From positions 1 to 55,656 of IMG/VR virus record IMGVR_UViG_3300037882_002905: 55,656 bases of DNA, one strand, 5' to 3'. The notes below the pieces were generated by a model. That model was given only the letters and a program-made list of their open reading frames with translations, was not told where the DNA came from and searched no databases. Positions 1,205 through 24,318 of this stretch are shown piece after piece; the stretch's first letter is position 1, and every line of letters begins with the position of its first letter. Origin of the DNA: a virus. A program made the translations under genes and the position numbers.

Positions 1205-3460
1205 ATGAAAAAAGATATTTCAATTATCCGTGAATCGATTTCACGAATCGTATCCATGCTGACGCGCCAATCCATCGATGTGACGCAGCGTGGATCGCGC
1301 GCTTTCGTTTCGTATCACCCGAAAACTGGCGAAATCATGGGATTGAATATCCCGTACATACCTGATGACGCCAGCGATGAATTCATTTGCGCCATTCAGG
1401 GCTTCCTGGATCACGAGGTCGGTCACGTCCTTCATACAGATTTTGCCGCCGCGAAGGGTGCAGCAAAAGCTGGCAAGCGAGTCGCCAACATCGCCAACGT
1501 GATTGAAGATGTGTTCGTTGAGCGCAAGATGTCCGAGATGTTTCGTGGCTCCGGCACAAACCTTGAAAATACTCGCAAGTTCTATCTGGAGAAGATCGCT
1601 CGTGTCAAGATCGACGCCGCGCTCAAGGCGGGTGATATCGAGATGGCGCGAGGGTACGCTAGCGTTGCTGCGTTCCGTGCGTGGGGTGGTCAAACCAGCG
1701 CGCAGGACTTTATCAAACAGCCGCACATCGCCGAGTTAGTTCTTCCAGTTCAAGAGAAGCTTGGTCCAGAGCTCATTAGCAAGATCGCCGCATGCAATAG
1801 CAGTGCCGACTGTCTTAACCTGGCCAAGTTGTTCAAGGGAAAGCTTGAGACGCCAAAGCCACCTCCACCGCCACCCGAACCTAAGCCCGTAGTGCCACCA
1901 CCGCCGCCACCGCCATCTGAGCCTGAATCAGATGACGAGCCGGCTGAAGAGCCAGGTGAGGGCGGGGAAGTTGCCACAAAGGCAGAGGGTTCGGAGGATC
2001 TCGGAACTGAAGATCGTGAAAAGTCTGATGCGCCAACCGACGCTTCAGAAGGCGATGCCGCAGATGGTGGCTCAGAAGATGTGCCTGAAGACGCCGAGGG
2101 TGGTGCGGGCGGCGAGGGCGTAGACCCAGAGGAGGGTGCAGCTGAAGATGGGTCGGACGAAGGTGCCGATATGTCATCTCTGCCAGACACTTCCGGGCCG
2201 CCAGAATTGCCAGCAGCGTCAGAGGAGTCTGAAACTGATGATACATCTGATACTTCAGATACATCGGATACATCCGATACACGCGACACATCGGCTACGC
2301 CCGACAAGTCAGATGATTCATCCGGGCCAGATACCGCAGGAGGTTCTGATGCGCCGGAAGAGTTAGATAAGCGCGAGCCCGGCTCAGGCCCCGAATCGAG
2401 CGACTCGGTTGCCGAGTCTGACGACATGGCGCGGTCGGGGGAAGCTGATGCTGAGCCTGAAGAAGACGACATGACGGATATGTTCGACACCGAGCGAGAC
2501 TTTGACAAGGATATGTCTGAAGCACTGAGTGCCGACGCTGAGAAGGAAATATCGAAGTCTAAGTACGCCGTGTTCTCAACCGACTGGGACAAGATAGAGC
2601 CAGCGCCAGTGTGTGTGCGTCCATCGACAGTCGAGCGCTTGGACCACAGCGTGAAAAACAAACTGAGCGTGATGCAGAAACAACTGGAACGTGCAATGGC
2701 GGCGCAAGCTCGCAAGGCTTGGAACCCCGGCATGCGGCGTGGTCGTATTGCTCCTGGCAGCCTCTACAAGGTTGTCGCCAATGATGATCGCATCTTTCGC
2801 CAGCGCTTTGAGACTCGTGCCAAGAACACTGTCGTTTCCCTTGTGATTGACTGTTCTGGCTCGATGGGCGGCGACGACAAGATTGGTTTAGCTGGATTGT
2901 CCGCTTACGCTCTTTCTTGTGTGATGGAGCGCATCAAGCTTCAGTACGAAGTGCTTGGATTTACCACACGGAATGGCGGGGAACTACAGCATTACATGAG
3001 GGAAGATGCCGCATCCCACGGCAAATCCATTTACGAAATGCAGTGGGGCCGGATTGAGCCCTTGTACATTCCAGTCTTTAAGCCATTCGATTCCAAGCTT
3101 AATAACCTCGCGAAGAGCCGTATCGCGCACTTAACTGAGTCGCCGAAGTATCTTTTGCAGAACGTAGATGGCGAGTCAATACAAATTGCAGGCCGCAGGC
3201 TTCTTGCCCAAAAGGCAGAGCGTCACGTGATGATTGTTCTGTCAGACGGCGAGCCCGCAGCGCAGGCGGCGCGCAACCTGCCGGCTCACTTGAAGTCTGT
3301 GGTCAAGGAGATGACCAAGAAAGGCATCGAGGTTATCGGCATTGGCATTCAGAGTGACGCCGTAGAGGCATACTATCCAAAGCATATCGTTATCAACGAC
3401 GCTTCGGAGCTGCCAACTCGCGTGATGGCTGAATTGACAAAGCTGCTTTTGGCCCCGTAA
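1205..3460 (+). CDS. cobT: CobT-like protein: HExxH metallopeptidase-like domain plus C-terminal VWA domain
   Basis: The product is about 751 aa. The N-terminal part carries HEVGH at residues 70-74 and a downstream N-x-IED segment with acidic residues near 101-106. This arrangement resembles gluzincin metallopeptidases. A long Pro run and then a roughly 200-residue acidic, Ser/Asp-rich low-complexity linker follow, including four DTS repeats. The C-terminal VWA domain has a complete MIDAS DxSxS (D549-C-S-G-S). The next gene is a CobS-like MoxR ATPase, so the pair matches the MoxR/VWA partnership of cobaltochelatase CobS/CobT. No other cobalamin gene is nearby, so a role in cobalt insertion is unlikely; the pair may remodel or cleave a protein target (inference). 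A GTG at 1196 is an alternative start. Confidence 0.8.
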   Translation: MKKDISIIRESISRIVSMLTRQSIDVTQRGSRAFVSYHPKTGEIMGLNIPYIPDDASDEFICAIQGFLDHEVGHVLHTDFAAAKGAAKAGKRVANIANVIEDVFVERKMSEMFRGSGTNLENTRKFYLEKIARVKIDAALKAGDIEMARGYASVAAFRAWGGQTSAQDFIKQPHIAELVLPVQEKLGPELISKIAACNSSADCLNLAKLFKGKLETPKPPPPPPEPKPVVPPPPPPPSEPESDDEPAEEPGEGGEVATKAEGSEDLGTEDREKSDAPTDASEGDAADGGSEDVPEDAEGGAGGEGVDPEEGAAEDGSDEGADMSSLPDTSGPPELPAASEESETDDTSDTSDTSDTSDTRDTSATPDKSDDSSGPDTAGGSDAPEELDKREPGSGPESSDSVAESDDMARSGEADAEPEEDDMTDMFDTERDFDKDMSEALSADAEKEISKSKYAVFSTDWDKIEPAPVCVRPSTVERLDHSVKNKLSVMQKQLERAMAAQARKAWNPGMRRGRIAPGSLYKVVANDDRIFRQRFETRAKNTVVSLVIDCSGSMGGDDKIGLAGLSAYALSCVMERIKLQYEVLGFTTRNGGELQHYMREDAASHGKSIYEMQWGRIEPLYIPVFKPFDSKLNNLAKSRIAHLTESPKYLLQNVDGESIQIAGRRLLAQKAERHVMIVLSDGEPAAQAARNLPAHLKSVVKEMTKKGIEVIGIGIQSDAVEAYYPKHIVINDASELPTRVMAELTKLLLAP

Positions 3461-3469
3461 GTGGCAGTC

Positions 3470-3483
3470 AGTCATTGATGACT
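3470..3483. promoter_or_regulatory. AGTCA-N4-TGACT operator upstream of cobS
   Basis: AGTCA-TTGA-TGACT sits just after the cobT stop. TTGTGATACACT downstream (about 3486-3497) could supply a weak -10. The arrangement suggests that cobS has its own operator-controlled promoter as well as read-through from cobT. Confidence 0.6.
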
Positions 3484-3563
3484 ACTTGTGATACACTGCC
3501 GAGTTATCACTTGCACAATTAAGTTTGTTGAGTTTGACTAATTTTTATTTTTCTGGAGCTGTT

Positions 3564-4730
3564 ATGACGACACCAACCCCTTCCACAGATACCCGCATCA
3601 AATGCGAGGAATGTGGCGCACTCATTCACGCTGTTGAGCATCACCTGAAGGAAGCTCACCCTGAGCTCACGCTGGAGCAGTACCGCAAAGCACACCCGGA
3701 TGCGCCTGTGTTCAGCAAGTTGGCACTGATCAAGCTGGAAGAAATGCGCAAGACAAAAGCCGCGTCTGCGGCATCCGAGTCAGTCAGCACTGACGTAGCC
3801 GCCCCCAAGACGGCATTGCATGAGTTGTTTGGCTTGGGTGTAACGCCGGCCGCCATGAGCTCGGGCGGCAAGCCCATCATGTTGTCTGTCTGTGAGCCTG
3901 ATGCATCGCATCAAAACATGGTTCCAGACATCGATCCAAACTACGTCTTCAACCTGGATGTCTTGAAAACCCTGCTCATGGGCATTGAGACAGGCATTCC
4001 CGTCTACCTGTGGGGCCACGCTGGCACGGGTAAGACCTCGATCTTTGAGCAGATCGCCGCCCGCACCCGCCGCGCCTTCATGCGTGTTCAGCACACTGCT
4101 AACATGGAAGAAGAGCACATCGTTGGTGGTTGGCGCTTCCGTGACGGCAAGACCACCTTTGAGCTCGGCCCATTGCCACTCGCCATGAAATATGGCTGGA
4201 TGTATGTCGCCGACGAATACGACTTTGGCCGACCCGAGGTCACTTCAGTCTATCAGGCGGTTCTTGAGGGCAAGCCTCTCGTCATCAAGGAAGCTGACGC
4301 CGAGAATCGCGTCATTCGCCCACACCCGAATTTCCGCATGGTTGGCACTGGTAACACCAATGGCCAGGGCGACGAGTCTGGCTTGTATCAGGGCACAACC
4401 TTACAGAACGCCGCGAACTACGAGCGCTTCGGAATTGTCGAACAGATGCCCTACATGGACCCCAAGCAGGAGGCCCGGGTCGTGTCTCAACAGGCTCGTA
4501 TCCCACTGAAGGATGCTGAGAAGCTGGTGGACTTTGCCAAGCGAGTTCGCACAGAGTTTGATGGCGGCAAGTTGGGTAACCCAATTTCTCCACGCTCGCT
4601 GATCTACGCGGCCCAGATTGGAATCATGCGCGGCAACTACCGCATCGGTCTGGAGAAGGCGTTCGTCAACCGTCTGACTTCGGTTGACCGTGAGTCTGCC
4701 TCTCAGTTGGCGCAGCGCGTCTTCGCATAA
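3564..4730 (+). CDS. cobS: CobS-like MoxR-family AAA+ ATPase with N-terminal zinc finger
   Basis: The product is about 388 aa. Residues 14-32 form C-x2-C-x8-H-x5-H followed by LTLEQYRKAHPD, resembling the Ros/MucR-type zinc finger and likely to bind DNA or protein. The AAA+ core has Walker A GHAGTGKT at about 151-158 and Walker B VADE near 215-218, and the region EEEHIVGGWRF..LAMKYGWMYVADEYDF is typical of CobS/MoxR. The start at 3564 has GGAG six nt upstream. The gene follows the cobT-like gene, and MoxR ATPases act with VWA partners. Phage CobS-like proteins are known, but their target is not. The sigma-like gene follows after 8 nt. Confidence 0.85.
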   Translation: MTTPTPSTDTRIKCEECGALIHAVEHHLKEAHPELTLEQYRKAHPDAPVFSKLALIKLEEMRKTKAASAASESVSTDVAAPKTALHELFGLGVTPAAMSSGGKPIMLSVCEPDASHQNMVPDIDPNYVFNLDVLKTLLMGIETGIPVYLWGHAGTGKTSIFEQIAARTRRAFMRVQHTANMEEEHIVGGWRFRDGKTTFELGPLPLAMKYGWMYVADEYDFGRPEVTSVYQAVLEGKPLVIKEADAENRVIRPHPNFRMVGTGNTNGQGDESGLYQGTTLQNAANYERFGIVEQMPYMDPKQEARVVSQQARIPLKDAEKLVDFAKRVRTEFDGGKLGNPISPRSLIYAAQIGIMRGNYRIGLEKAFVNRLTSVDRESASQLAQRVFA

Positions 4731-4738
4731 GGCACACA

Positions 4739-5344
4739 ATGCAAACACTTACGCCAGCTAAGAAGACTTATGCCAATGATGGCTCACTAGAGTCGGTTCA
4801 GAACCTACTCACCAGGCTGGCGGGCAAGTGCTACCGCCGGGTGGCTGCGATGGGTCTGAGTATGGAGTTCGACGATGTTCTTCAGGAGATGCGTCTGAGC
4901 TACGTGAAGGCGAAAGCCGCATGGAAGCCAGATGGCGGTAGCCGCTTTTCGACTTACTGCCAGACCGCCTGCATCAACAATTTCAACAACGCCATTCGCA
5001 AGATGGAATCGGAGCGTGCTGAATTGGGCATGGTGTCGATCAACGCCTTCTCAGGCGAAGATATCGACGGCGCAATCGACCCGATGGAGATCATGCTGAA
5101 TGCCGCTGGCGACAAGAGTGACCTTCCGGAAGCTCGTCTTGAAGGCGCGCAAGAGCTCCAGAGAAACCTCAAGGGATTGTCGCCTGGCGCCATGCGTCTT
5201 GTGAACCTTCTCTTTCAGGCAGAGCAGCGCGGTTCGAACTACTCCACAAGTCTTCGCCTGCTCTCTACGGCTGCCAATTTGAAAGGCGACGAGCTTGTGC
5301 GTGTCAAGGCTGAGATTGAAAAGAAATTTGGAGTCAAATGGTAG
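4739..5344 (+). CDS. Sigma-70 region 2-like protein, candidate phage sigma factor
   Basis: The product is 201 aa. Residues about 40-90 match sigma-70 region 2: DDVLQEMRLSYVKAKAAW, then FSTYCQTACINNFNNAIRK, the pattern of the -10 binding helices. The C-terminal half is less typical and I do not see a clear region 4, which recalls T4 gp55. AAGG lies upstream of the ATG. The gene follows cobS closely and overlaps the next gene by 7 nt. It is a candidate for recognising the second promoter class of the 24-47 kb genes. That link is inference. Confidence 0.7.
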   Translation: MQTLTPAKKTYANDGSLESVQNLLTRLAGKCYRRVAAMGLSMEFDDVLQEMRLSYVKAKAAWKPDGGSRFSTYCQTACINNFNNAIRKMESERAELGMVSINAFSGEDIDGAIDPMEIMLNAAGDKSDLPEARLEGAQELQRNLKGLSPGAMRLVNLLFQAEQRGSNYSTSLRLLSTAANLKGDELVRVKAEIEKKFGVKW

Positions 5345-5940
5345 TTCAAAAAGAGCCGCTGGGCTGCTATGGACTGCCATCTGCTGTCAGCTTTAACTCA
5401 CCCACTTGCCGTGGGTGCTCTTGCTCTTCGGGTTGTTTGTCTGTCGGAAAGGCGCTTCTGGAGTCTTTCCCCGATACCGAATCTATTGCACGTGAGCGCC
5501 AAGTATTTGCAGTGACGTTTCGTGCGTTTGCAAGCTCGCCACCGCGAAGCGCTCATGGTAAGGGACAGGTTGTCGTTGTGGAAAGCACACGCGGTGTTCG
5601 CCGAATCAAGCTGACGCCCGAGCAGCTGGATACGCTTAGCAGATTCCCAGCCAAAGTTGGCAGTCAGGTTCGCTCGCTCATGGAGCGCGGTTGGTTTGAT
5701 TTTGCCAAGAACGAACTTAGGCATGGGCGCAATCCATCCAACAAAGGATGGAAGAAAGTCTTCTGTGACGCTCTTCTGAATGGAAGGTCTTCAAGGGCCG
5801 AGCTGGTGATTGCGCTGGCAGAGCAAATGGGCATGACGGCCAAAAGCGCCACGGTTCAAGTCAGTGTTGGGATGTCCATCTTCGCAGCGGGTCGAATTGC
5901 CAGCGAAGTCTTCGGGAAACTGCACTTGACTCCGAACTGA
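5338..5940 (+). CDS. Hypothetical protein with N-terminal cysteine cluster
   Basis: The product is 200 aa and not recognised. Residues 24-33 hold CRGCSCSSGC, a cluster that could bind zinc or an iron-sulfur cofactor. The rest is basic and probably folded, with a central IKLTPEQLDTLSRFP segment. The ATG overlaps the end of the sigma-like gene and is preceded by GGAG, so the two are probably translated together and could act together. Confidence 0.7.
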   Translation: MVVQKEPLGCYGLPSAVSFNSPTCRGCSCSSGCLSVGKALLESFPDTESIARERQVFAVTFRAFASSPPRSAHGKGQVVVVESTRGVRRIKLTPEQLDTLSRFPAKVGSQVRSLMERGWFDFAKNELRHGRNPSNKGWKKVFCDALLNGRSSRAELVIALAEQMGMTAKSATVQVSVGMSIFAAGRIASEVFGKLHLTPN

Positions 5941-5979: not shown

Positions 5980-8900
5980 ATGAATCCGCTACAAGTTGCA
6001 CTATCTGTCAGGACTGACTATTCGCTCGGGGAGTCTAGCTTCCAGATCGGCAAGATTATCGAACAGGCGAAAAAGCTCCAACTTACCCACATTGGCATTG
6101 CCGACTACATGACAGTCTCTGCGATGCCAACGCTCGCCGAGAAGGCTAAAAAAGCGGGTATCGAAATCATTACCGGCGTCACGATCCAAGTGGTTGACGA
6201 TCCGGTCGCCAAGATCAAAGACCGGGAGAATAACGGCTACCGTCTGAAGGTGTACTCCAAGACAGAGAAGGGCACTCATGCCATTTTCGCTGCCCTGAGC
6301 AAATCTCTTGAGCCTGACAACTTCTACTACCATCCTCGCCTGGGCCTGGACGATGTTCTTGCTCTGGAAGATGTCGTTGTCACCACAGGCGATACACACA
6401 GTCTGTGGCGTCACCCGGACTTTCAGGTAATCCATCACAAGCTCCTTGAGCGATTCGGGTCTGACTTGTACGAGGAGTTGGTGGCAATCAATACGCCACT
6501 CTACGACAAGATGAATCAGATTGCCCTGAAGATGGCGCCAAACCCTAACAACGTGATCATCACGCGGCCATCCTTCTACGCTGAGCCTGATGATGCCGAC
6601 GCTACCGATGTGCTGCGCGCCATCACTAGCAATACGCCAATGAGTTCGAATTTTCTCGCTCGTCCATATACGCGAGACATGTGCCTAATGTCGCCCTTGC
6701 AGATGGTCAGGCAGTCACGCGAGGCAATACATCGCTCCAGCGCCCAGGCGGCCGTAGCGGGCGTGAGCGCTTCAACGGCACTGACTTCGATGACTTTGCT
6801 GGCGGAAAAATGCAGCTATCGGTTCAAAAAGATGGCGCCATCGATGCCCAAGATGGCACCTGACGAGTTTAAGGCGCTGTGTGCAGCCGTTGCTGTGGGC
6901 TGGAAAGATCGTCTTTCAAGCCCAGTGTGGGGCCACCAGCCAGCTGAGGCAGAGCTGCCTGTCTACCGAGAGCGCCTGAAGTTCGAACTCGCCGTGCTTG
7001 GCAAGATGGGCTTCTCTGGCTACTTTTTGCTGGTGCAAGACATCGTGAAGTGGTCAAAGGACAGCGGTATTCTTGTCGGCCCGGGTCGTGGGTCGGTTGG
7101 CGGCTCTTTGGTTGCGTACCTCATGGGCATTACTGACATCGACCCGATCCGGTTTGACCTCCTATTCGAGCGATTTATCAATCCTGACCGTACCGACTTG
7201 CCTGATGCCGACCTGGACTTCATGTCTGGCAAGCGTCACATGGTGGTGGACTACATCATCAGCAAGTATGGCAAGGAGAACGTCGCGGGTATCGTCAACT
7301 TCTCCACCCTCGGGGCGGCATCGGCGCTGCGCGACACCGCGCGGCTGCATGAGCTTGACCCTTGGGAATATGCCTGCTCAAAGCAGATGGAGAAAGAACA
7401 CGGCGTTTCTGTTGGTCTTACCGAGTCTGCCGAGCGTGTCCCGGATATTGAAAAGTTCAAGAACGAGCGGCCTGTTTTGTGGGACTTTGCGCTGCGCCTG
7501 GAGGGTTCCAACCGCTCCCTGTCACAGCATGCCGCTGGCGTGATCGTCTCGGGTGAGCCAGTTGTGAACCGTGCCGTCGTCTCTACCCGTGGAGAATTGC
7601 CTGTTGTTCAGTGGGACAAGACACAAGTCGAGAACTTCGGACTGATCAAGATCGATATCTTGGGCCTCAACACGCTGGACTTGATTGACACGGCGCTTGA
7701 CTACGTCAAGGGGCGTCACGGTAAGTCGATTGATATTCTCAAGCTGCCGCTGGATGACGAATACGTTTTGCAAGCATTCGCCAAGGGCGACAGCACAGGC
7801 GTCTTCCAGTTTAGCGGGGCGGGCATGAAGAAGCTCCTACGCGAGATGGCGATGGGCGGCCCACTCACGTTTGAAGACCTGTGCGCCGCCACCGCGCTGT
7901 TTCGTCCAGGTCCTCTCGATGCGGGCATGTGTGATCGCTACGTCCAGGTGAAACAGGGCGCGACAGTTCCGCACTACGAACACCCGCTGCTGGAAGAATG
8001 TCTGAGCGAAACCTTCGGGGTGATTGTCTATCAGGAACAGGTGATGAAAATCTGCCGAGTTCTTGCGGGCATGACCCCGGGCCAGGCGGACTCTGTGCGT
8101 AAAGCTATGGGTAAGAAAGATGCCGAGAAGATGGCTGAATACAAGACCATCTTTATTGAAGGCGCTTCGAAGTCGGGTATGGCACCTTCCGCAGCCGATC
8201 AGCTTTGGGAGAATATCGCAGGCTTCGCCGGCTATGGTTTCAACAAGAGCCATAGTTATGAGTACACACTACTGTCCTGGGTCACCATGTGGCTGAAGGT
8301 TCACTATCCAGCCGAGTTCTTCGCGGCGGCCATGACGGTGATTGATGATGACGACAAGCTCGCGCCGCTCGTCACCGATGCGCAGTCCCGAAAGCTCCAG
8401 GTGTTGCCACCTGATCTGAACAAGTCTAGCGCCCGAATCGAGATCGAAGGCGAAGACAAGCTGTACGCACCATTTCAAGCCATCAAGGGCATCAGTTCCA
8501 ATGTATCAGCAGCCATTGTCAAGCTGCGCGAGTACGGAAACCACGACACCGGGTGTCTCGCAGGCGTATTTACGCGAAGCGCCAAGGGCGACATCATGGA
8601 GCTCGACCCGATAATTCAGAAGATTGTTCTGGGTGGCGTCAAGGTGAACGTGACCGCCCGCGAGAAATTGGCCAGGGTGGGTGCATTCCATTCGATTGAT
8701 GGGATAGGGCACAAGGCAACTCATCCAGACCGTCTGAAGGATCGTCTTGAACTCTGCCCCGGCTTTACGGTGGATATGGTTAAGCCAGATCGTGTGCTCA
8801 GTGTGGATCACATTACCAAGCTCAAGATTACTGCCATGATCCAGGGCACGAAGACCTGTGACGGCTGCTCTCTGCGTGGTGCTCCGCATCCGTTGCCCCG

Positions 8901-9369
8901 CATGGGTGACCATCCTCGTTTCATGGTGGTGTTTGACACGCCCAACTGGAAAGAAGAGAAGGCGGGCATGCTTCTTGAAGGCGACAACGCCCTGATTGTT
9001 AAGGCGGCGCTCAAAGACATTGGCCTCAAGCCGTCAGACGGCTACTACACGACGCTGGTCAAGTCCATGAAGCCAAAGGATCAAAAGATGCTCTCGAATG
9101 AGCAGATCAATGGCTGTTCGAAGTGGCTCAAGGAAGAAATCGCAATCTTAAAGCCGCCCGTTATTGTGGCAATGGGTAGCAATGCGATCCGCTTTTTCAG
9201 TCCAGGTATCAAGGGGACTCCGTCTGACCTGGCGGGCAAGGCCATCTTCAATGCCGATCTGGACGCGACCATCATCTTCGGAATCAACCCCGCAACCCTG
9301 TTCCACAATCCGGGCAATGTCAAGCTGATCACAGCGGCATTTGACAAGCTCGGAGAACTTCTCTCTTAA
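5980..9369 (+). CDS. dnaE: DNA polymerase III alpha (DnaE-like) fused to a uracil-DNA-glycosylase-like domain
   Basis: The product is 1129 aa. The N-terminal PHP domain is degenerate: the usual His motif reads SVRTDYS, so metal-dependent proofreading there is unlikely. The C-family polymerase core is intact, with GPGRGSVGGSLVAYL at 367, PDADLDF with catalytic Asp about 411 and 413, and KIDILGL with the third Asp about 559. The thumb and fingers motifs FRPGPLDAG and YQEQVMKI are present. After about residue 945 the usual OB and tau-binding regions are replaced by a family-4-like UDG domain: C960-x2-C963, then C1046 in NGCSKWL and IVAMGSNAIRFF. The fourth expected Fe-S Cys reads KS instead of KC. 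The UDG-like part may sense or remove uracil near the replication fork (inference). A separate DnaQ-like exonuclease is encoded at 33642. Confidence 0.93.
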   Translation: MNPLQVALSVRTDYSLGESSFQIGKIIEQAKKLQLTHIGIADYMTVSAMPTLAEKAKKAGIEIITGVTIQVVDDPVAKIKDRENNGYRLKVYSKTEKGTHAIFAALSKSLEPDNFYYHPRLGLDDVLALEDVVVTTGDTHSLWRHPDFQVIHHKLLERFGSDLYEELVAINTPLYDKMNQIALKMAPNPNNVIITRPSFYAEPDDADATDVLRAITSNTPMSSNFLARPYTRDMCLMSPLQMVRQSREAIHRSSAQAAVAGVSASTALTSMTLLAEKCSYRFKKMAPSMPKMAPDEFKALCAAVAVGWKDRLSSPVWGHQPAEAELPVYRERLKFELAVLGKMGFSGYFLLVQDIVKWSKDSGILVGPGRGSVGGSLVAYLMGITDIDPIRFDLLFERFINPDRTDLPDADLDFMSGKRHMVVDYIISKYGKENVAGIVNFSTLGAASALRDTARLHELDPWEYACSKQMEKEHGVSVGLTESAERVPDIEKFKNERPVLWDFALRLEGSNRSLSQHAAGVIVSGEPVVNRAVVSTRGELPVVQWDKTQVENFGLIKIDILGLNTLDLIDTALDYVKGRHGKSIDILKLPLDDEYVLQAFAKGDSTGVFQFSGAGMKKLLREMAMGGPLTFEDLCAATALFRPGPLDAGMCDRYVQVKQGATVPHYEHPLLEECLSETFGVIVYQEQVMKICRVLAGMTPGQADSVRKAMGKKDAEKMAEYKTIFIEGASKSGMAPSAADQLWENIAGFAGYGFNKSHSYEYTLLSWVTMWLKVHYPAEFFAAAMTVIDDDDKLAPLVTDAQSRKLQVLPPDLNKSSARIEIEGEDKLYAPFQAIKGISSNVSAAIVKLREYGNHDTGCLAGVFTRSAKGDIMELDPIIQKIVLGGVKVNVTAREKLARVGAFHSIDGIGHKATHPDRLKDRLELCPGFTVDMVKPDRVLSVDHITKLKITAMIQGTKTCDGCSLRGAPHPLPRMGDHPRFMVVFDTPNWKEEKAGMLLEGDNALIVKAALKDIGLKPSDGYYTTLVKSMKPKDQKMLSNEQINGCSKWLKEEIAILKPPVIVAMGSNAIRFFSPGIKGTPSDLAGKAIFNADLDATIIFGINPATLFHNPGNVKLITAAFDKLGELLS

Positions 9370-20983: not shown

Positions 20984-23236
20984 ATGAACGTCATTAAACG
21001 GGATGGCTCGGCAGAGCTTTTTGATTCAGCAAAGATCGAACGCCTCAATGAGTATGCGACAAGGGGTCTTAACGTGGACCTGGACCTGTTGCGCAGGCAG
21101 ATCACGCTTCTTGTCTACGAAGGCATGAGCACGGCTGATATCTTCCAGACCCAGATTAAGGCTGCCGCCGGTCTGATTAGCCGCGAAAACCCAAATTTCA
21201 CTTACGTCGCCGCCCGCTACTTGCTGGCAGATACCAGCAAGCGCGCGAATGGCAGTGCCTTTTATCCGCACTTGAGCCAGACTGTTGAGCGAGGCATCAA
21301 GGCCGGCCGCTACAACCCGGCACTCGGGAACACTTTCAATCTTGATCACCTGAACGACGCCATCAAGGTTGAGCGCGACTTTCAGTTCGACTACATCGGC
21401 CTGCAGAACATCGTGGATCGCTATTTGATCCGTGACTTTGATCAGAATCTGATCGAGATGCCGCAGCACTTTTTCATGCGCGTGGCAATGGGTCTGTCTT
21501 TGAATGAAGAGTACCCGACGGCCTATGCGATTCACTTCTACGACCTGTTGTCTTCCTTTGACTTCATGTCCAGCACCCCTACGCTGTTCAATTCCGGGAC
21601 TCTGCACAGCCAGCTCTCCAGTTGTTACCTGAACACTGTGGCAGATCAGATCAGTGCCGAGGGTGGTGAGAACCGTTTCGCCAGTATCTTCGGCACCATT
21701 GAGGAGTCGGCTCGTTTGAGCAAGTTTGCTGGCGGCATTGGAACCAGCTGGACTCGGGTGCGTGGCGCTGGTAGCAATATCAAGTCCACCAACGGCAGGT
21801 CAAGCGGTGTTGTTCCATATCTCAAGGTTTACAACGACACAGCCGTCGCTGTGAATCAAGGCGGCAAGCGCAAGGGCTCTTTCGCGCCGTACCTTGAGCC
21901 GTGGCATCCCGACTTCATGGACTTCTGTGAACTCAAGAAGGAGTTCGGTGATGATCGCCTGCGGGCTCACGACATCTTCCCGGCCGCATGGATTCCTGAC
22001 CTGTTCATGAAGCGTGCCACAGAAGGCGGTGTTTGGTCATTCTTTCAGCCTAACGTCTGCCCTGAACTGCATGAACTCTATGGCGAAGCCTTCGATGCTC
22101 GCTACAAAGAACTTGAAGCCGCTGGCAAGTTCGTCAAGCAATTGCCAGCCATTCAGGTCTGGAAGCACATCTTGACGAACCTGTTTGAAACTGGCCACCC
22201 TTGGGTCACCTTCAAGGACGAGTGCAATCGTCGCAGCCCTCAAGACCATGTCGGCGTGGTGCATAGCTCCAACCTGTGTACGGAGATCACCCTCAATACA
22301 TCTGACACCGAAACCGCCGTCTGCAACCTCGGCTCTATCAACCTATCTCGCCACATCAAGTACGGAACGATTGACCACGAGAAGATTGGCCAAACCGTTG
22401 GGCTGGCCATTCGGATGCTGGACAACGTGATCGACCTGAATTACTACCCGTCCGATCGGGCACGAGCCTCCAATATGCGACACAGGCCCATCGGCCTCGG
22501 GATTATGGGCGAGACGGAAGCCAAGATCGCTTGCGGTATCGCCTTCGACAGCGAGGCCGGCCTTGATTTCTCTGACGCCGTGATGGAGCGAATCAGCTAC
22601 GAAGCAATCTCGGCCTCCAGCAAGTTGGCGCGCGAGCGCGGCTCATATGGTTCGTTCAAGGGCTCCAAGTGGGAGCGAGGCATTCTGCCCATTCACACCG
22701 CCCGGAGCCAGAACTCAATCTTGAGGCTTGATTGGGATTCACTGGCCAAGAAAGTGTCTCGCAACGGCATGCGCAACTCAAACCTGATGGCAATTGCCCC
22801 AACGGCCACGATTTCCGTGGTCTGTGGGACAGAACCTTCTTGTGAGCCGATCTTCGAGCTGGAGCGCACTGAAGGCAACATCAGCGCCAGCTTCAAGGTT
22901 ATCAGCCCGGCTCTTCGCTTGACCAGCAACCCGGCGCTCCTGAAGACTGTGTGGGATATCGAGCCTGTTTGGGTGATCAAGTCTGCCGCCCGCCGTCAGA
23001 AGTGGATCGACCAAGGCCAATCCATCAACGTCTTCATCAAGGACGGCACAAGGGGGCGTGACTTGTCAGAAATCTACGTCATGGCATGGCAAGAAGGCTT
23101 GAAGACCACCTATTACTTGCGCAGCCAGACTAAGAAGAAGGCTGTTCCGGGAACCCTCTTGACGCAAGCTATTGCCCAGCCTGAGAGCGCCAACTTCTGC
23201 AGTATCGACACGCCAGATTGCGAGGCATGTCAATGA
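20984..23236 (+). CDS. nrdA: Ribonucleoside-diphosphate reductase, class I alpha subunit
   Basis: The product is 750 aa, close to E. coli NrdA (761 aa). An N-terminal ATP-cone-like segment (VIKRDGSAELFDSAKIERL) is followed by the barrel with active-site cysteines: Cys214 in LSSCYL, radical Cys432 in SNLCTEI and Cys447 in AVCNLGSINL. A YY pair is present in TTYYLRSQ, and a CxxC-type redox tail (DCEACQ) ends the protein. It reduces NDPs to dNDPs with NrdB. AGGAAAG precedes the ATG, and a terminator follows. Confidence 0.95.
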   Translation: MNVIKRDGSAELFDSAKIERLNEYATRGLNVDLDLLRRQITLLVYEGMSTADIFQTQIKAAAGLISRENPNFTYVAARYLLADTSKRANGSAFYPHLSQTVERGIKAGRYNPALGNTFNLDHLNDAIKVERDFQFDYIGLQNIVDRYLIRDFDQNLIEMPQHFFMRVAMGLSLNEEYPTAYAIHFYDLLSSFDFMSSTPTLFNSGTLHSQLSSCYLNTVADQISAEGGENRFASIFGTIEESARLSKFAGGIGTSWTRVRGAGSNIKSTNGRSSGVVPYLKVYNDTAVAVNQGGKRKGSFAPYLEPWHPDFMDFCELKKEFGDDRLRAHDIFPAAWIPDLFMKRATEGGVWSFFQPNVCPELHELYGEAFDARYKELEAAGKFVKQLPAIQVWKHILTNLFETGHPWVTFKDECNRRSPQDHVGVVHSSNLCTEITLNTSDTETAVCNLGSINLSRHIKYGTIDHEKIGQTVGLAIRMLDNVIDLNYYPSDRARASNMRHRPIGLGIMGETEAKIACGIAFDSEAGLDFSDAVMERISYEAISASSKLARERGSYGSFKGSKWERGILPIHTARSQNSILRLDWDSLAKKVSRNGMRNSNLMAIAPTATISVVCGTEPSCEPIFELERTEGNISASFKVISPALRLTSNPALLKTVWDIEPVWVIKSAARRQKWIDQGQSINVFIKDGTRGRDLSEIYVMAWQEGLKTTYYLRSQTKKKAVPGTLLTQAIAQPESANFCSIDTPDCEACQ

Positions 23237-23270
23237 AAGACCTGAATCCCGTTTCCATCTAATCAAAACA

Positions 23271-23294
23271 GGCTCCGTAACTGGAGCCTTTTTT
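23271..23294 (+). terminator. Rho-independent terminator between nrdA and nrdB
   Basis: GGCTCC/GGAGCC with a 6-nt loop is followed by six T residues. It is short, so partial read-through into nrdB is likely and may set the alpha to beta ratio. Confidence 0.85.
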
Positions 23295-23313
23295 CCCATG
23301 AGAAAGTACAAGC

Positions 23314-24318
23314 ATGACAAAGAACACAACACAGATCACCAATGATCGCCGAATCGCTTTCGGGCCACCGGACCGCATGATGAATATGTCCAGGGTGAAG
23401 TACCAGTGGGCGATTGAAATCTACGACCGCATGGAGTCGAACACTTGGTTCCCCAAGTCCATCCCGCTCGGTGGAGACCGCATCTGCTATCGCGGCGGCC
23501 AGCTGAGCGAGCGCGAGAAGTCTGCCTATGACAAGGCGCTGGCATTTGTTTCCAACCTGGACGGCATTCAGTTCAACAACCTGATCCACAACATCGGCCA
23601 GCATGTCACCGCCCCCGAGGTTAGCCTTGCATTGGCTCGCCAGGCATCGGAGGAGGGCGTTCACGTTCGCTCCTACCAGATGCTGATCGATGCCGTCTCC
23701 CTAGACCCGGAATCGGTCTACATGATGTTCCAGCGCGATGGCGTTCTGGCGCAGAAGAACGAGTTCATTATGCGGCAGTCCGATGTACTGCGTGGCGATC
23801 CTAGCCCTGAGAACTTTGCTCGCGCCATCGTCAGCAATGTGATCCTTGAAGGCGTCTACTTTTACACTGCCTTTTTGGTCTTCTACACGCTGGCCAGGAA
23901 CGGAAAAATGCTGGCTAGCTCCGACATGATCAAGTACATCAACCGCGACGAAGGTGGAACCCACCTTGACTTGTTCACAAACATGCACCATGCGTTCCAC
24001 GCAGAGAACCCGCATCTGTATGACGCTCAGTTCGTGGCAGACGCCCACAAGCTGTTCCGGGACGCAACTGAGCTGGAGATCAACTGGGGCCGGTACATCA
24101 TCGGCGGCGGCTTTCTCGGACTCACAGACGCGATGATGACCGACTTCCCAAAGCATCGCGCCAATCTATGTTCGATCAAATTGGGCCTAGGGCCAGTCTA
24201 TCCCGACATCGCTGACCCGGCGCCGTGGTTCGAAGGCTTCTCGGAGCCCGGCGGCCGGCAAAACTTTTTCGAGCGCCGTGTCACGGACTATCAGGCAACA
24301 GGCTTGGAGTGGGATTGA
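23314..24318 (+). CDS. nrdB: Ribonucleoside-diphosphate reductase, class I beta subunit
   Basis: The product is 334 aa. Di-iron ligands and the radical Tyr are in place: LDGIQ, then EEGVHVRSYQ with the EXXH pair and Tyr as in E. coli NrdB, VILEGVYFY, and RDEGGTHLDLF. In the last motif Glu and His are separated by three residues rather than two. I read this as a subfamily feature, not a defect. It supplies the tyrosyl radical to NrdA. The start lacks a strong ribosome-binding site, and ATG at 23314 is the natural choice. Confidence 0.93.
   Translation: MTKNTTQITNDRRIAFGPPDRMMNMSRVKYQWAIEIYDRMESNTWFPKSIPLGGDRICYRGGQLSEREKSAYDKALAFVSNLDGIQFNNLIHNIGQHVTAPEVSLALARQASEEGVHVRSYQMLIDAVSLDPESVYMMFQRDGVLAQKNEFIMRQSDVLRGDPSPENFARAIVSNVILEGVYFYTAFLVFYTLARNGKMLASSDMIKYINRDEGGTHLDLFTNMHHAFHAENPHLYDAQFVADAHKLFRDATELEINWGRYIIGGGFLGLTDAMMTDFPKHRANLCSIKLGLGPVYPDIADPAPWFEGFSEPGGRQNFFERRVTDYQATGLEWD

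Follow-up and report, generated by a model that had tools for sequence, protein, structure and literature searches.

What do a cobT-like and a cobS-like gene do in the genome of a phage? Viral cobS and cobT genes are taken as auxiliary metabolic genes for vitamin B12 (e.g. PMC8651126, PMC11705849), and in a study of archaeal tailed viruses it was proposed that viral CobST hijacks the CobN protein of the host, the peptidase label carried by the cyanophage relatives being called mistaken (PMC8651126). For group 2.2 jumbo phages, Iyer et al. (2021; PMC7824862) described a pair formed by a MoxR AAA+ ATPase and a metallopeptidase-vWA protein, and proposed a role in virion assembly. In this work, we have analysed such a pair in a viral record of 55,656 bases (the window, i.e. 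the whole stretch of DNA studied), which is rich in genes for replication, recombination and nucleotide metabolism. The initial annotation had read the pair as a chaperone-protease machine.

Organization of the CobT-like protein

The first gene of the pair codes for a protein with three recognizable parts:

1205..3460, + strand: cobT-like gene (PHROG_1576), ATG at 1205, stop codon ending at 3460, 751 aa
1208..1831, + strand: N-terminal gluzincin-like domain (AlphaFold2 model, VIA-align matches)
1412..1426, + strand: HEVGH, residues 70-74, predicted zinc-binding/catalytic motif, kept as HExxH in homologues
1496..1522, + strand: NVIEDVFVE, residues 98-106, predicted third-ligand helix (E101/D102/E106), from homologue conservation
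1835..2524, + strand: proline/acid-rich linker, residues 211-440, from composition
2795..3451, + strand: VWA domain with MIDAS (PF11775, E=2e-36; invariant D, S, S and SDG)
2849-2863, + strand: MIDAS DCSGS, residues 549-553
3242-3250, + strand: SDG of the VWA domain, residues 680-682

The product belongs to PHROG_1576 (E=3e-174), whose function is given there as unknown; it is matched by the Pfam family CobT_C (E=2e-36), and its N-terminal domain by itself is matched by PF06213 CobT (E=3.6e-7). The linker contains 33% D+E and 6% K+R, together with poly-proline. The HEVGH with acidic residues nearby, the acidic linker and the VWA domain with an intact MIDAS, all pointed out in the initial annotation, were thus recovered. 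Antisense ORFs across cobT (e.g. 1750-2733, minus strand) were dismissed as an effect of the acidic, repetitive linker sequence. The nearest named relatives of CobT and CobS are found in phages of Rhizobium, Stenotrophomonas, Salmonella (SSU5), Klebsiella, Escherichia and Pseudomonas (nickie). At seven loci (L042, L072, L076, L085, L108, L110 and L111) cobT is broken into a peptidase/linker ORF and a VWA ORF.

The N-terminal domain and its zinc motif

Conservation of the motif was assessed in 61 non-redundant CobT homologues, which had been found by VWA patterns or by similarity over the whole protein, HExxH playing no part in the selection. The motif is retained at a single column in 55 of them and its Glu in all 61; since the sequences were collected independently of the motif, this is not due to chance. 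The N, E, D and E of NxxEDxxxE are each nearly invariant over the whole set, and all four are present together in 53 of the 55 HExxH-bearing proteins. In the remaining six sequences both His are replaced together (S..K, Q..K, R..K, R..T, K..T). Inspection of the tree and the alignment showed at least four phage lineages without both His that still carry the VWA domain and the ATPase gene; a parsimony count gave nine His losses, a figure that takes in fragments and split genes without the N-terminal domain, and the four phage losses were counted by inspection. These losses imply that proteolysis cannot be the sole function of the pair, and that the ATPase/VWA part is valuable on its own. One locus (L053, 4238-6226) reads HEVAR where its near-identical sister L041 reads HEVAH, owing either to recent loss or to an error in sequencing.

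In the model of the domain predicted by AlphaFold2 (pLDDT 93.5, pTM 0.87), three short strands are followed by the HExxH helix, and a helix further on carries the acidic motif. A Foldseek search of the PDB with this model gave no significant match, and zincins surfaced only by VIA-align re-ranking, where the top six (DUF885, the minigluzincins jannalysin and abylysin, ZMPSTE24, LTA4H and ArdC) are all HExxH peptidases, MATCAP and IrrE appear at lower ranks, and the best Z values (4.6-5.7) lie in what is a middling range (Z 4-6) on the tool's own scale. Peptidase families of Pfam and NCBIfam gave zero matches on the domain. The combination of HExxH with conserved acids on a following helix, as judged from sequence conservation and the secondary structure of the model, is that of gluzincins, and the domain probably belongs to these metallopeptidases of the zincin fold class. 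The metallopeptidase motif of the initial annotation is supported as part of a metallopeptidase-like domain, which is predicted to bind zinc and to be catalytic.

The partner ATPase carries a Ros/MucR-like finger

The second gene lies immediately downstream:

3564..4730, + strand: cobS-like gene (PHROG_249), MoxR/CobS-type AAA+ ATPase, ATG at 3564, stop codon ending at 4730, 388 aa
3603..3659, + strand: Ros/MucR-like C2H2 zinc finger (PF05443 in relatives, 2jsp profile match)
4014..4037, + strand: Walker A GHAGTGKT, residues 151-158, conserved in homologues

Its product belongs to PHROG_249 ('porphyrin biosynthesis', E=2e-91) and to the CobS family of ATPases, with a match to AAA_5 (E=9.5e-18). 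The adjacent genes, with Walker A intact in one protein and MIDAS in the other, form a MoxR AAA+/VWA pair. The finger reads C14-x2-C17-x9-H27-x4-H32. On this CobS alone ROS_MUCR stays below threshold (E=0.021 with the whole protein, 0.0016 with the isolated segment); PF05443 is matched by 43 of 63 CobS family members, and the family profile retrieves the Ros structure 2jsp (E=1.5e-5), in agreement with the earlier description of a MoxR ATPase with a Ros/MucR-like finger. The spacing C-x2-C/D-x9-H-x4-H within a Ros-type segment recurs in the family, where the second Cys is an Asp in some members; as these were picked by the pattern C..[CD], only the His columns are unbiased. The finger may bind DNA. 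The ATPases examined from T4-like phages, ICP2 and integrative elements gave no sign of a Ros-like finger, so it seems specific to the CobS lineage of this phage. In the CobS of a Xenorhabdus hominickii element (L109:10406-12712) an intein-like insert follows directly after the GK of the P-loop.

The pair is fixed beside a DNA polymerase gene

Three genes of a conserved neighbourhood follow the pair:

4739..5344, + strand: sigma-70 region-2-like gene (PF04542, E=6e-5, 23.1 bits against a cut-off of 24)
5338..5940, + strand: PHROG_3616 gene (PHROG match)
5980..9369, + strand: DNA polymerase III alpha with PHP and a C-terminal UDG-like domain

Sequence extends for 6.5 kb or more beyond cobT in 58 viral loci, and 55 of these show the order cobT, cobS and polymerase III alpha, with the polymerase gene within 3 kb. 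The comparison with other phages that had been suggested for the pair thus confirms its place beside the polymerase; of the genes said to follow it directly, the polymerase stands, and the sigma-like gene is a weak assignment that falls just short of its cut-off. The C-terminus of the polymerase contains a domain of the uracil-DNA-glycosylase superfamily (residues about 978-1120), and at L016:10766-15015 the polymerase gene is split by approximately 700 bases carrying another ORF, with similar splits at several loci. Genes for an NrdA/NrdB-type ribonucleotide reductase, an enzyme that needs no B12, lie at 20984-24318. Promoter and terminator scans gave counts near those of shuffled sequence and were not used.

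Several relatives lie beside other replication and recombination systems

In the T4-like phages S-ShM2, S-CAM1 and Mosig, 'peptidase' and CobS-like genes adjoin, or are a few genes away from, those for gp45/gp44 (sliding clamp/clamp loader); in S-CAM1, where the 'peptidase' gene is unnamed, the pair is also near gp46/47. The 'peptidase' proteins of Mosig and S-ShM2 carry HECAH or HEVGH. The T4-like cyanophage set (PHROG_459 and CobS) resembles ours in its HExxH N-terminal domain, its VWA domain, the neighbouring MoxR ATPase and the adjacent replication genes, but its CobS has no detected finger and the replication system is a different one. In ICP2, the relatives are upstream of primase, helicase and polymerase.

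Outside phages, relatives occur in bacterial integrative elements downstream of Erf-like and exonuclease genes, with DUF3150 in between, and inside the ssb/bet/exo or recT/exo region of an IncC plasmid and another MOBH plasmid, whose VWA proteins carry HEAAH or HEIGH. The IncC cluster reads AAA-ssb-bet-exo-DUF3150-VWA (L197:2777-10770), its VWA protein having HEAAH. These plasmid and integrative-element sets share with ours the HExxH...EDxxxE motif, the VWA domain, the MoxR ATPase and recombination neighbours; they differ in the additional DUF3150 gene and in the ATPase gene, which is upstream of the VWA gene instead of downstream, and the integrative-element ATPases lack a detectable finger. 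The loci from Gordonia, Roseobacter, Kayvirus and Microcystis have no clear replication neighbour, or just a RecA-family one, and the record of a Kayvirus MoxR relative calls it a 'structural protein'. The scan of genome contigs used the HExxH pattern, and its HExxH frequency was excluded as evidence.

Relationship to cobaltochelatase

The AAA+ and VWA domains and, as profile comparison shows, the N-terminal domain are homologous to those of cobaltochelatase CobS/CobT (PDB 9uka, 21vu, 9ujv), with which the acidic linker is also shared. The phage proteins nevertheless miss the curated equivalog cut-offs widely (TIGR01651, 112.6 against 759 bits; TIGR01650, 135.8 against 558.6 bits). CobN/ChlH, the sole cobalamin family searched, is absent from the phage record, which is a fragment; the earlier statement that no cobalamin gene is nearby holds to that extent. 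Among 22 bacterial genomes holding the cobT family (of unstated completeness), 12 lack CobN/ChlH and 10 have it. A CobN partner is missing from many carriers of the family. Together with the missed cut-offs, this supports the view that the pair is not linked to cobalamin synthesis.

In cellular CobT, which aligns with the phage N-terminal domain (hhalign probability 94%, E=1e-7), SxALK/R-like residues stand where the phage has HExxH; our literature search found no mention of a CobT zinc site. A tree of the VWA region places eight cellular CobT proteins in one clade, beside HExxH-bearing proteins of Roseobacter-type phages (84% support). This position favours loss of the zinc site in the chelatase line, which the tree supports without proving, because it includes sequences collected with the HExxH pattern.

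Discussion

Our analyses suggest that the pair is a MoxR/VWA-metallopeptidase machine, driven by ATP, that remodels or cleaves proteins in nucleoprotein complexes of replication and recombination. Its relatives recur next to replication and recombination systems of different kinds, and the zinc motif is conserved. On these two grounds, the explanation that fits best is a remodelling/protease role in DNA transactions, and we give it an even chance of being correct; the neighbourhood points to this function without proving it. The CobS ring would pull substrates using ATP, and the VWA/MIDAS face of CobT, in complex with it, would dock onto the ring or grip the substrate peptide. The Ros-like finger could bring the ring to DNA or to a replication protein, and the zinc domain may cut the protein presented by the ring, the likely job being to extract, remodel or cleave proteins of these complexes. 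Of the chaperone-protease reading in the initial annotation, the MoxR/VWA pair with its metallopeptidase-like domain stands; proteolysis cannot be its only function, given the lineages that lost the His.

Those same lineages, and cellular CobT, which lack the motif and keep the VWA domain, speak for an ATP-driven chaperone without useful proteolysis, in which the zinc domain would be a structural or regulatory substrate-binding module. We regard this as unlikely, since 55 of the 61 sequences show strong conservation of the His, the Glu and the second-helix acids, and the others have lost both His together, which is how a functional site behaves. Quite unlikely, in our opinion, is a role in virion assembly or maturation, with chaperoning and processing of structural proteins. 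It was proposed for the jumbo-phage pair, the analogy drawn being with the Acidianus two-tailed virus (PMC7824862), and would agree with the label of the Kayvirus relative, but the genes studied here sit in a replication/nucleotide module, and the IncC plasmid relatives retain the motif though plasmids build no virion. Compared by description, the jumbo-phage proteins (ASV44728/ASV44729) share the adjacent MoxR and vWA genes and the N-terminal metallopeptidase of the vWA protein; our pair differs in its replication/recombination neighbours and its Ros-like finger.

A host-takeover or counter-defence machine degrading DNA-bound host proteins early in infection would suit the early/replication module and a finger of DNA-binding type. 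Defence-type genes usually vary in position, and the pair keeps its place next to the polymerase in 55 of 58 loci, which makes this reading improbable. We give least credit, and very little, to auxiliary metabolic genes whose products would join host CobN in a cobaltochelatase and increase B12. Homology and annotation favour it, as do the general proposal for viral CobST (PMC8651126) and the 10 carriers with a CobN/ChlH-family protein; the missed cut-offs, the carriers without CobN/ChlH, the viral zinc motif missing in cellular CobT and a phage-encoded reductase of a kind independent of B12 stand against it. Our results are in favour of calling the cyanophage proteins peptidases, and they speak against hijacking of CobN as an explanation that would hold generally.

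SPRTN/Wss1-type proteases of DNA-protein crosslinks work with p97/Cdc48, and the remodelling machine proposed here resembles them in joining a zinc protease to an AAA+ ATPase at replication; the AAA+ clade and the domain layout are different, and the likeness is one of analogy only. A bolder version, which we consider rather doubtful, is that a SPRTN-p97-like nucleoprotein protease machine of mobile elements serves unrelated phage, plasmid and integrative-element systems, and that the B12 subunit CobT derived from it by loss of the zinc site.

The general idea of a phage MoxR and metallopeptidase-VWA pair is already known (PMC7824862); the link to replication and recombination, the zinc finger and the evidence against the B12 annotation are new. 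If the pair is a protein-remodelling protease machine for DNA transactions, readings of these viral genes as B12 auxiliary genes would have to be revised. A gene pair present in hundreds of phages and many conjugative plasmids, and so far unexplained, would acquire a role open to testing, and there would be a concrete hypothesis for how cobaltochelatase arose.
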